Shown here: positions 6,338-26,944 of the stretch, piece by piece
Layout of the letters: each line of letters begins with the position of its first letter
How positions within the stretch are numbered: position 1 is the first letter of the stretch
DNA from: Alphaproteobacteria bacterium
GTDB lineage: Bacteria > Pseudomonadota > Alphaproteobacteria > UBA8366 > Aestuariispiraceae
DNA length: 64,000 bases
Reading direction: 5' to 3'
Assembly: GCA_024743195.1 (NCBI GenBank)
Contig: JANSXE010000002.1
Location: 372,001 to 436,000, forward strand
Made by a program: the position numbers and the translations under genes
Notes under the pieces: generated by a model
Told to the model about the DNA's origin: nothing
What the model saw: only the letters and a program-made list of their open reading frames with translations
The model's database searches: none

Positions 6338-6418
6338 CGGGTTCCTCCAAGCAGGCGGGAGAATAGGGGCGGCTTGCGCGGGAATCAATCGTCGCGGCGG
6401 TCGGGCTGTCAGCCCCGC

Positions 6419-6434
6419 TGTTTCACGTGAAACA
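6419..6434. promoter_or_regulatory. parS centromere site 2
   Basis: A perfect 16/16 match to TGTTTCACGTGAAACA in the 157-base gap between mnmE and mnmG. It is 31 bases from a second perfect copy, so the gap acts as a double ParB loading site. Confidence 0.95.
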
Positions 6435-6465
6435 GCGGCGTAGCGTCTCGTCGCCCGACCTCCAA

Positions 6466-6481
6466 TGTTTCACGTGAAACA
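6466..6481. promoter_or_regulatory. parS centromere site 3
   Basis: Another perfect TGTTTCACGTGAAACA copy, 14 bases past the mnmE stop codon. With sites 1 and 2 it forms a parS cluster spanning about 2.1 kb. Confidence 0.95.
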
Positions 6482-6494
6482 GCCGGCGCGTCCC

Positions 6495-24630: not shown

Positions 24631-25042
24631 CCCACGAGCTTCTGCGCGATCGCCCCGGGCGTCGACCTATGCGAGCGCCCCTGCGCGAAAGAATCTTGAG
24701 GAGGTGAATCCGATTCGGTTGGAAATCGGTTCGGTTTCTTGTTCTAATGATTCCGGTCGTCTCTTGGACGCTCTGACTGTCAGCCTCAATGGACAGAACG
24801 GGCGGCGGGGGATCGGCGGGCGATGTTGGCGGCGCAGGTGCGATGCGCGCGACGGTCGCCGGCCGACGGATCGAGAAGGGGAACCTCGCGGGCTCGGCGG
24901 TCGATGGACGCCCGCAGCGCAGATCGACCGCTCAGTCTCCGAACAAATCCCCATGTATCCGGACCGGGAGGTCATTGCTGAAGCGCCGCGGCCCGGCATC
25001 GCCGCAAAATCAAAATCGTCGGGCTGCGTATGGGGGGTGACG
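24631..25042. other. 412-base gap upstream of the cobalamin/haem sensor gene
   Basis: The gap lies between mltA and the sensor gene. It is open in frame with the sensor gene from 24704, but that extension is Arg-rich, has no domain resemblance and has its Shine-Dalgarno-like bases directly on the GTG. The only notable site is a TGT-N12-ACA palindrome at 24778-24795. The gap probably holds the sensor promoter. Confidence 0.5.
24778..24795. promoter_or_regulatory. CrtJ/PpsR-type palindrome TGTC-N10-GACA
   Basis: The 18-base site fits the CrtJ/PpsR consensus TGT-N12-ACA, with the inner bases also paired (TGTC and GACA). It lies 248 bases upstream of the sensor gene start. A chance hit is possible; the evidence is the motif and its location next to AppA/AerR-like genes. 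Confidence 0.35.
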
Positions 25043-25918
25043 ATGTCGTCGATGAACCCCGACGATCCGCACGGGGCCCTAGGCGGCCACGAGGCGGAGG
25101 GGACGTCCGGCCGGTCCACGCTCGAGTCGCTCGATATCGGGTGGCTGACGGACACGATCGAGAAGCGCGTGATCCCGGAGCTCGCCCGGGCCTGCGAGCG
25201 CTATTTCCCGGCGCCCGGCGAGACCGGCCCGGCGCCGCCGCCGGCGCCCCTGCCGGCCGAAGCGTTCGATTCCGTGCTCAGCGCGGTCCTGAACTACGAC
25301 AGCGCGCAGGCGATCCGCATCGTCGATACGCTGTTGGAGGATCGCGTCCCGCTGCAGATTCTCTATCTCAAACTGTTCGCGCCCGCCGCGCATCGGATCG
25401 GCGAGATGTGGGAATCGGACCGCCTCGATTTCCTTCAGGTCACGCAGGCGCTCGCGGCGATCCAGCTCGTTCTGCACCACCTGGGCGAGGCGCCGACCTC
25501 CGAACCGCTCCAGTACGATTCGACCCGGCGCATCCTGATCGCGCGGGCGCCGGGCGAGCAGCACGTCTTCGGCGTTCTGACGGTCAGCGAGTTCTTCCGC
25601 CTCGGCGGCTGGGAGGTCGAGGGCGGCGTGGGCCAGGAAGCGGACGGCGCCCTGCTCGATCTCGTCGGATCGCGCTGGTTCGCCCTGGTTGGGCTGTCCG
25701 CGGCGACGGACGGGCGCATCGGCCCGCTCACCGAGGTGATCCCGCGCATTCGGGCCGCCTCCAAGAACCGGCGCCTGGGAATCATGGTCGGCGGCCCTGT
25801 TTTCCTCGAGAACCCGGGGCTCTTCGAGGCGGTCGGGGCCGACGCGATGGCCGGCGACGCGGATCAGGCGGTCAGCCGCGCGGAGGATCTCCTCGCCGCC
25901 GCCTTCAAGCAGGGGTGA
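25043..25918 (+). CDS. cobalamin/haem-binding (SCHIC/AerR-type) sensor protein
   Basis: The 291-residue protein has a disordered N-terminus, a helical cap (LNYDSAQAIRIVDTLLEDRV, WESDRLDFLQVTQAL, about residues 83-150), and a Rossmann-like B12-binding domain beginning RILIARAPGEQHVFGVL. His174 sits in G-E-Q-H-x-x-G, the place of the axial-ligand His in DxHxxG domains. This layout resembles AerR/PpaA and the C-terminal SCHIC domain of AppA, which bind cobalamin or haem and antagonise CrtJ/PpsR. The ATG at 25043 has GGGGGG just upstream. The gene next door encodes a BLUF protein. The ligand is inferred, not shown. Confidence 0.78.
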   Translation: MSSMNPDDPHGALGGHEAEGTSGRSTLESLDIGWLTDTIEKRVIPELARACERYFPAPGETGPAPPPAPLPAEAFDSVLSAVLNYDSAQAIRIVDTLLEDRVPLQILYLKLFAPAAHRIGEMWESDRLDFLQVTQALAAIQLVLHHLGEAPTSEPLQYDSTRRILIARAPGEQHVFGVLTVSEFFRLGGWEVEGGVGQEADGALLDLVGSRWFALVGLSAATDGRIGPLTEVIPRIRAASKNRRLGIMVGGPVFLENPGLFEAVGADAMAGDADQAVSRAEDLLAAAFKQG

Positions 25919-25993
25919 GCCCGACTCGCCCCGCGCGCGCCCCGCGCGCGCCCCTGCGCGCGCCAGGGTCCGTCTGCGATTGGACGCGGCCTC

Positions 25994-26021
25994 TTGGCCG
26001 GGGGAATATCTCCGCTATATG
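25994..26021 (+). promoter_or_regulatory. possible promoter of the BLUF gene
   Basis: TTGGCC (25994-25999) and TATATG (26016-26021) are separated by 16 bases, a plausible sigma-70 type pair, about 100 bases before the BLUF start. This is pattern recognition only. Confidence 0.28.
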
Positions 26022-26121
26022 GATCGCTTGTGGAGAACGGGACCGCCAGGCCCCCGCCCTGCTTGAAGGCGGCGGCGCGTCGGCTCGGGTCTCGTAGGAT
26101 TTGTCTGATGAGGGGTGCTGC

Positions 26122-26583
26122 ATGGCGATGCGGCGATTGATCTATTTCTCCAATGCGGCCGAAGGGGTCGGGCCGCGCGACATCGAAGACATCCTGGCGG
26201 TCAGCAGGCGGCGCAACGCCGAGGCCGGCGTGACGGGGCTCCTGCTCTTCATGCACGGGGTCTTCGCGCAGGTGCTCGAAGGCGAAGCGCAGCGGGTGGA
26301 ATCGGTCTACCGGCGGATCGAAGCGGACGGCCGGCATGTCGAGCCGGAGATCCTGTCCGACCGAACGGTCGCGCAGCGCAGCTTCACGGATTGGTCGATG
26401 GCTTATCTGGAGACGACGGCGGACGATCTGGCGCGGGCCGCCGGGTTCGACCGCCTGTTCGAGGAACCGGAGTTCCTGCCCGTGCTCGAGGACCATCCGG
26501 AGAAGCTGGAGGACGGCATCGCACTGGCCCTGCAGCGCTATGCGGAGCGGCTCGAGCGCGAGGGCGCGCCGGCTAGCGGCTGA
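26122..26583 (+). CDS. BLUF-domain blue-light sensor
   Basis: The 153-residue protein is a complete single BLUF (blue-light using FAD) domain with a short helical C-terminal cap. The four residues of the flavin photocycle are present by alignment to AppA: Tyr8 (LIYFS), Asn32 (RRRNAEAGVTG), Gln50 (GVFAQVLEG) and Trp91 with Met93 (FTDWSMAYL). No output domain is fused, so it should act through a partner protein. The ATG at 26122 has AGGGG six bases upstream. It lies 203 bases after the cobalamin/haem sensor on the same strand. Its last 11 bases overlap the convergent cytochrome gene. Confidence 0.95.
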   Translation: MAMRRLIYFSNAAEGVGPRDIEDILAVSRRRNAEAGVTGLLLFMHGVFAQVLEGEAQRVESVYRRIEADGRHVEPEILSDRTVAQRSFTDWSMAYLETTADDLARAAGFDRLFEEPEFLPVLEDHPEKLEDGIALALQRYAERLEREGAPASG

Positions 26584-26944
26584 GCGTCTCGAGATAGGCG
26601 AGGAAAGCGTCGATCTCGCCGGGCTCCAGCCGCGTCTCGGGCATCTGGGGATGGCCGGTGACGATTCCCTCCGCCAAGGCTTCGGCCAGGTTGGCGAGCG
26701 GCCACAGATCCTGAAGCGTGCGGAAGGGCGGCGCGACCGCGACCGGACTCTCACCCGTCCGGCCGATCGCGTGACACTCGGCGCAGCGCGCCGCCGCCAG
26801 GGCTTCGCCCGCCATGGGGTCGGGCGGATCGCCGCCGGCCTGCGCAGCCGGCGCGAAATGCAGCGCGACTGCGACCACAGCGCCCGCGGTCCAGGCGTCC
26901 GCACGCCGAGACATCGCGGCCCTCCGCGCCCGGTTTCGCCGCAT
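26573..26944 (-). CDS. small c-type cytochrome, periplasmic
   Basis: The 123-residue protein has a signal peptide (basic start, hydrophobic core about residues 19-33, cleavage after APAAQA) and one haem site CAECH at residues 54-58. The distal ligand is probably Met101 (HPQMPE). It is a class I cytochrome c of the small soluble kind. The ATG at 26944 has AAGGAGG six bases upstream. Its 3' end overlaps the BLUF gene by 11 bases, and it is divergent from lutA. The electron-transfer partner is unknown; the lutABC genes next to it suggest but do not prove a link to lactate oxidation. Confidence 0.88.
   Translation of the reverse strand: MRRNRARRAAMSRRADAWTAGAVVAVALHFAPAAQAGGDPPDPMAGEALAAARCAECHAIGRTGESPVAVAPPFRTLQDLWPLANLAEALAEGIVTGHPQMPETRLEPGEIDAFLAYLETLSR

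Follow-up and report, generated by a model that had tools for sequence, protein, structure and literature searches.

Adjacent genes for a second PpaA/AerR-type protein and a BLUF-only protein: a candidate two-gene co-regulator of PpsR in an alphaproteobacterium

Two adjacent sensor genes

The stretch of 64,000 nucleotides analyzed here (the window; contig JANSXE010000002.1 of assembly GCA_024743195.1, positions 372,001 to 436,000) stems from an alphaproteobacterium of the family Aestuariispiraceae. It contains two genes on the plus strand, separated by 203 bp, which encode a second PpaA/AerR-type protein (P0001) and a BLUF-only protein (P0002; Table 1). The same two sensor types are fused in AppA, which binds PpsR. 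In terms of sequence, the locus combines an AppA-like layout with an AerR-like chemistry, distributed over two proteins. Together, the two genes may encode a light-responsive co-regulator that acts on the photosynthesis repressor PpsR; we assign a probability of about 0.5 to this reading.

Table 1. Features of the P0001-P0002 locus, with positions in the window
Feature	Position	Strand	Basis
PpsR/CrtJ-type palindrome TGTCAgcctcaatgGACA, 247 bp upstream of the P0001 start	24778..24795	.	pattern search
P0001, second PpaA/AerR-type protein with four-helix cap and B12 Rossmann domain, 291 amino acids	25043..25918	+	Pfam, PDB match, model
Perfect 21-nt inverted repeat, left arm (last P0001 codons)	25894..25914	+	repeat search
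Right arm of this 21-nt repeat, separated by 142 nt from the left arm and by 44 nt from the BLUF ATG that follows	26057..26077	-	
P0002, BLUF-only protein with Tyr8, Asn32, Gln50, Trp91 and Met93, 153 amino acids	26122..26583	+	Pfam BLUF, residues
Small c-type cytochrome gene	26573..26911	-	Pfam Cytochrom_C, 33.1 bits

An earlier sequence-only reading of this DNA had described two adjacent genes on one strand, one for a BLUF domain and one for a cobalamin or haem sensor, and had named Tyr8, Asn32, Gln50 and Trp91 of P0002 as well as His174 of P0001. Both genes lie on the plus strand where it had placed them, the domains score above the Pfam cut-offs, and every residue was found at its place. 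The two frames are intact, ligand and photocycle residues included, and their GC content by codon position is that of real genes. The frame of P0001 stays open 5' of position 25043, with a GTG at 24704; the stretch in front of 25043 has 64% G+C, compared to about 70% in the surrounding 2 kb, and contains the PpsR-type site. Judged from the sequence, 25043 is the likeliest start.

The textbook form of a PpsR/CrtJ site is TGTN12ACA. Five such sites are present in the window versus 1.72 expected, a number that was reached by 3 of 100 shuffles. The stricter form TGTCAN9GACA, a pattern picked after sites in related clusters had been viewed, has a single match in the window, namely the palindrome upstream of P0001, with 0.07 matches expected. 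When the 412-bp gap that contains the palindrome was shuffled, a loose TGTN12ACA site arose in 46 of 5000 cases and a strict form in two of 5000. Two TGTN12ACA sites are also present 5' of bchG in the photosynthesis cluster of the same genome. The candidate site suggests that the module is under the control of PpsR, which would constitute a feedback.

The space between the two genes is strongly folded at the level of the predicted RNA (z -2.9), and only one of 200 shuffles was equally stable. The inverted repeat, which connects the end of the P0001 gene with the region upstream of the BLUF gene, could form a stem in an mRNA or could flank an invertible segment (invertible promoter). No other copy of the 14-nt core of its arms was found in the window, with one mismatch allowed, and among 199 loci the core occurs only in three, all of which are copies of the P0001-P0002 place.

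Residues and folds of the two proteins

The Pfam search identified B12-binding_2 (PF02607, 39.7 bits, cut-off 23) and B12-binding (PF02310, 38.6 bits, cut-off 32.1) in P0001. AppA_4HB reached 20.1 bits, below its cut-off of 27, and AppA_SCHIC had no match at E values up to 1. Among PDB sequences, AerR (7te2, E 2.6e-13) matches best, with AppA behind it (8e-10). The alignment with 7te2 is free of gaps across the first 102 aligned positions, and in this stretch W123, F130 and H174 of P0001 correspond to W94, F101 and His145 of AerR. No variation at these three positions was seen in two alignments that include P0001, one of 12 members encoded inside and outside of photosynthesis clusters and one of 15 members. 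In AerR, W94 and F101 have been described to form the cobalamin cap and His145 to be the lower ligand, while AppA, with its haem-type SCHIC domain, has Leu239 and Arg246 instead and a histidine two residues earlier (PMC9144470). Because the ligand residues match AerR and not AppA, cobalamin is favored over haem, and the sequence points to cobalamin as the ligand of P0001. Haem had been suggested before, and was rejected as the likelier ligand, as neither the Leu/Arg pair nor the shifted histidine of AppA is present. The idea of a "split AppA" in terms of descent is likewise given up: both the residues and the order of the PDB matches are of the AerR type, and the description of an AppA-like layout with AerR-like chemistry replaces it.

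The structural model of P0001 has a predicted local distance difference test score (pLDDT) of 75 and is based on a 15-row alignment. Comparison with 7te2 yielded a VIA Z of 20.0 and a root mean square deviation of 3.7 over 205 residues, and the AppA chains reached Z values of 18.5-19.1. The top matches of the model are photocobilins, which are B12-and-bilin photoreceptors (Z 24-25); this is read as the common B12 fold only. The modeled fold by itself does not discriminate between AerR, AppA and photocobilins, and it is the residues that favor cobalamin. Three residues of AerR have been proposed to touch CrtJ, i.e., Thr105, Ser109 and Gln112. The equivalents of the first and the third, Thr134 and Gln141, are retained in P0001, and Ser109 is replaced by Ala138. 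The long form of PpaA/AerR proteins has an N-terminal tail with an upper-ligand histidine and helix 1. The tail of P0001 contains His10 and His16, and a helix is predicted at residues 32-54, with pLDDT values below 50 for residues 1-30 and 50-63.

A signature of GxxW, EH, GxxH and GxxxP has been described for the light-sensing cobalamin domains of the CarH type (PMC11796333). Inspection of P0001 by eye revealed GxxW (residues 120-123) and GxxH (171-174). By the CarH numbering, Val133-Thr134 presumably sits at the place of EH. The best matches of P0001 outside of its own genome are about 40-44% identical, and the identity to the PpaA of its own genome is 48% over 127 residues.

P0002 consists of a BLUF domain (PF04940, 101.7 bits, cut-off 25) and about 60 C-terminal residues. 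In agreement with the sequence-only reading, neither Pfam nor NCBIfam recognizes an output domain. The best PDB sequence matches are Tll0078 and Slr1694, followed by photoactivated cyclases and AppA. The photocycle set of Tyr8, Asn32 and Gln50 as well as the Trp91/Met93 pair are all present, and judged from these residues P0002 would be a BLUF-only photoreceptor that binds flavin adenine dinucleotide.

Host genome, relatives and other neighboring pairs

The host genome (31 contigs, 98% complete) contains a ppsR gene (TIGR02040, 484 bits, cut-off 275). A PpaA-type gene precedes it, a bchG-type gene follows it, and the surrounding cluster includes recognizable bchF, N, B, H, L, M and puh-like genes; all of these were named by eye. 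The proposal of an AppA-like role presupposed a PpsR/CrtJ homolog, and the objection that the role falls for want of PpsR was thus rejected. The P0001 gene is located on contig C29 and ppsR on C31, so that P0001 is not encoded directly upstream of ppsR, which is the rule for aerR/ppaA in purple bacteria (PMC10890935); in this genome the other PpaA-type gene occupies that place. A position next to ppsR is not regarded as family-defining, because orphan PpaA/AerR members without it exist. As the host has ppsR together with its usual ppaA/aerR gene, P0001 is a second PpaA/AerR-type protein, and the pair therefore supplements the standard set and replaces nothing. The genome contains two BLUF genes, both of them short (open frames of 161 and 163 amino acids), and a fused BLUF gene of the AppA type elsewhere in the genome was therefore rejected. 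The other BLUF-only gene (G000:C15, L014 8888-9334, minus strand) adjoins a gene that resembles acyl-CoA ligase genes by eye.

The genes for P0001, P0002 and the cytochrome fill 2.4 kb between mltA and lutA, and the cytochrome c gene is convergent with the BLUF gene, which it overlaps by 11 bp. Twelve relatives in the family have a match to lutB, and seven of them were examined (G002, G003, G007, G008, G009, G012 and G013). In all seven, mltA is followed by lutA, with short spacing except in G002 (about 0.7 kb), and none has a match to any of the three inserted genes at this locus. G007, the other genome of the host genus in the 14-genome family, has neither a PpaA/AerR nor a BLUF match. Within the family, the BLUF proteins most similar to P0002 (48-53% identity) come from G008, G009 and G011, and each of these genomes has ppaA. 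Eight genomes of the family have no PpaA match; of these, G001, G003 and G004 have weaker BLUF matches, and no BLUF match was obtained in the other five.

Neighboring AerR-type and BLUF genes were also searched for in 385 genomes drawn evenly from the class, with up to six candidates scored per genome. Twelve genomes, the host among them, encode an AerR-like protein (E below 1e-20) and, in a frame of its own, a BLUF protein; the two genes are neighbors in the host and in G054, where they lie on the same strand about 0.8 kb apart. A second sample comprised 249 genomes of the sphingomonad-like family of G054. An AerR-like match was found in 45 of them, 36 of which also have a BLUF match. Among the BLUF positions listed and in the 1.5-kb flanks of 30 AerR loci, neighbors in separate frames were seen in G054 and in G576, where the two genes are divergent. 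At least eight of the 45 genomes have both domains in one frame, as AppA does (G186, G364, G449, G477, G527, G588, G592 and G638). In the pooled samples, without the host genome, about 0.13 neighboring pairs are expected by chance versus two observed in 44 genomes that hold both genes, and the P value of 0.008 is a rough one, given the relatedness of the genomes and a 2-kb limit that was chosen only after the fact. The pairing proposed from the host sequence thus recurs elsewhere above the chance expectation.

A protein search of plasmid records identified 13 with an AerR-like match. Six of these records were fetched and five were scanned for BLUF, and a BLUF neighbor was found only in Methylobacterium bullatum (NZ_LR743510.1). 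Its plasmid has the order BLUF-AerR-BLUF on one strand (L154, 4938-7042 of the locus), unannotated in the copy of the record. The first BLUF protein is 70% identical to that of G054, and the second is 52% identical to that of G576. A tblastn search of plasmids with the first BLUF (E limit 1e-12) retrieved itself and one Cupriavidus match at 40%; the plasmid BLUF search covered the best 60 of 218 matching records, and further pairs may exist beyond these. ppsR had no match in the plasmid record of M. bullatum, while the rest of its genome was not searched. No exact TGTN12ACA site is present near the AerR gene of M. bullatum or that of G054, and the PpsR-type site is therefore not common to every AerR-BLUF pair. 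Further neighboring pairs were absent from 30 of the loci identified in 82 genomes of the order of G387 (1.5-kb flanks), from nine loci of 17 genomes of the family of G189, and from 19 named loci. A search of the open-access literature retrieved neither a published AerR-BLUF gene pair nor a paper on BLUF together with cobalamin binding in Methylobacterium.

A separate observation concerns G172 (L054, 4972-6201), which encodes a predicted protein of 409 amino acids (open frame 447) in which a BLUF match is followed by a weak AerR-like match (E 2.5e-5), possibly a further BLUF-B12 fusion.

A first AerR tree had 89 rows, and removal of 23 long, distant or redundant rows led to a second tree with 66 rows. 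In the latter, P0001 is placed next to one ppaA from a photosynthesis cluster (80/77), with a branch length of 1.9, and outside of a clade of orphan AerR genes (100/99). This clade comprises L052, L060-L065, L107, L111, L114, L115, L154 and L156, which are located outside of photosynthesis clusters as far as fetched, some of them on plasmid records. Approximately unbiased (AU) tests rejected neither a grouping of P0001 with the orphan clade (p 0.43) nor one with the PpaA of its own genome (p 0.25). Because the placement of P0001 is thus left free, "coupled twice independently" is unsupported for AerR. A 20-row tree of BLUF proteins contains two lineages, BLUF-A (98/100) and BLUF-B (100/99), which hold the M. 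bullatum proteins with their G054 and G576 counterparts, and P0002 groups with members of its own family (83/83). As the BLUF proteins of M. bullatum, G054 and G576 form two lineages and P0002 belongs to a third, the BLUF neighbors of AerR-type genes come from three lineages, which by sequence are clearly different.

Apart from the genes discussed, the window contains two copies of TGTTTCACGTGAAACA at 6414-6486, which we take to be the parS (ParB-binding) sequence. Their presence suggests a location of the window close to the chromosome origin.

Possible roles of the pair

The locus resembles AppA of Rhodobacter/Cereibacter sphaeroides in that a BLUF sensor and a four-helix-cap/Rossmann B12-fold domain are joined in a genome with PpsR. 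However, AppA is a single polypeptide with a haem-type SCHIC domain and a Cys-rich C-terminal tail, whereas two separate frames are present here and P0001 has AerR-type ligand residues and a single Cys in its N-terminal part. P0001 shares the lower-ligand histidine, the W/F cap and perhaps also the predicted N-terminal helix with AerR of R. capsulatus and with PpaA, but its gene is an additional one, which lies away from ppsR and has a BLUF neighbor. P0002, without an output domain, is similar to the short BLUF proteins PixD, BlrB, PapB and BlsA. BlrB and PapB signal via partners, and BlsA has been reported to act with Fur. In contrast to P0002, none of the short BLUF proteins was found described in the open-access literature as encoded beside an AerR-type protein. 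In Congregibacter litoralis KT71 a single-domain BLUF gene lies near ppsR and was speculated to act on PpsR in an unknown manner (Spring et al., 2009; PMC2654016), and a BLUF gene upstream of the cluster has been reported for the NOR5/OM60 clade (PMC3176799). The difference here is that an AerR-type partner is encoded next door; the text of PMC2654016 mentions neither PpaA, AerR nor SCHIC. Dinoroseobacter shibae also combines a separate flavin photoreceptor with a B12-type PpaA, as LdaP and the B12-dependent PpaA both act on PpsR. However, LdaP is a LOV protein, and the passages considered do not present it as a PpaA partner (PMC10890935).

If the pair is a PpsR co-regulator, His174 of P0001 would serve in cobalamin binding and its four-helix cap in PpsR binding, in analogy to AerR and AppA. 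P0002 would associate with free or PpsR-bound P0001, and under blue light it would alter the grip of P0001 on PpsR, in trans, as the BLUF domain of AppA does in cis. PpsR in turn could act on the site 5' of P0001 and close the feedback. Whether the pair would relieve or strengthen repression is not predictable, as the sequence gives no sign of the effect. In Porphyrobacter an insertion in ppaA increased the pigment content (PMC10674011), and activating as well as repressing forms of AerR have been described (PMC10890935). Both results make the direction of the P0001 effect unpredictable, and the former makes the term "antirepressor" unsafe for every PpaA/AerR member.

The Porphyrobacter result is one of several points that weigh against the proposed co-regulator. 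The host already has a canonical PpaA, and one of the three proposed CrtJ-contact residues is altered in P0001. P0001 lacks a close orthologue, and the exact pair is therefore known from one genome only. G005 and G006 have ppaA but only weaker BLUF matches, the G054 pair has a small predicted frame on the opposite strand between the two genes, and the AerR genes of two Methylobacterium plasmids and of G732 have no BLUF neighbor. In addition, co-transcription of P0001 and P0002 is uncertain, because the two genes are 203 bp apart, with the inverted repeat around this gap and the stable predicted RNA structure in it.

The most serious alternative, which we consider rather unlikely, is that the two neighbors act apart, P0001 as an extra B12-dependent PpsR co-regulator and P0002 in the manner of PixD, BlrB or BlsA with another partner. 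The length of the gap is in accord with this, as is the similarity of P0002 to the short BLUF proteins Tll0078 and Slr1694. The family relatives of P0002 are solitary in the stretches fetched, i.e., no P0001-like neighbor was found within 12-16 kb around the BLUF genes of G008, G009 and G011. Most of the orphan AerR genes examined also lack a BLUF neighbor, which is present in only three of the 13 rows of the orphan clade; five of the other ten are sphingomonad-like (G423, G443, G510, G626 and G665, 3.8 to 20 kb fetched), four are of the Beijerinckiaceae or Rhizobiales type, and one is a Polymorphobacter plasmid. However, AerR-BLUF neighbors recur with three BLUF lineages, including two BLUF genes around one AerR gene, and P0001 and P0002 share one insertion.

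There is a smaller chance that the two proteins do cooperate, but on a target other than photosynthesis, P0001 being a diverged paralog that has taken up another function, as the orphan AerR genes outside of photosynthesis clusters may have done. The long branch of P0001, its location outside of the photosynthesis cluster and the cytochrome c gene in the same insertion are compatible with this, and the PpaA/AerR-like HP1 of R. rubrum has been found to act beyond photosynthesis (PMC10734443). It is at odds with the PpsR-type site upstream of P0001 and with the retention of Thr134 and Gln141. That the genes form a cassette which was acquired recently or is in decay, with no function under selection, as the presence in a single genome and the absence from the locus in G007 and six other relatives might indicate, is very improbable in view of the intact frames, the conserved ligand and photocycle residues and the codon-position signal.

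Beyond the host, it is a tentative suggestion that couplings between AerR-type B12 photoreceptors and BLUF flavin photoreceptors have arisen repeatedly and involve at least three BLUF lineages, the separate proteins acting as one dual-chromophore PpsR co-regulator, an "AppA in pieces" that keeps B12. If true, AppA, with its fused genes, would mark one end point of an association that recurs. It would also explain by which route PpsR is reached by single-domain BLUF proteins when a phototroph lacks AppA. Blue light represses pigment synthesis in Congregibacter litoralis and Roseobacter denitrificans, which have no recognized AppA, and the role of single-domain BLUF proteins in this repression was left open by Spring et al. 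(2009; PMC2654016). An adjoining AerR-type protein is a concrete and testable partner for such a protein. A natural two-piece version, with B12 in the place of haem, would show that an AppA-like integration can be built without fusion, and it would be a ready two-component part for the control of genes by light.

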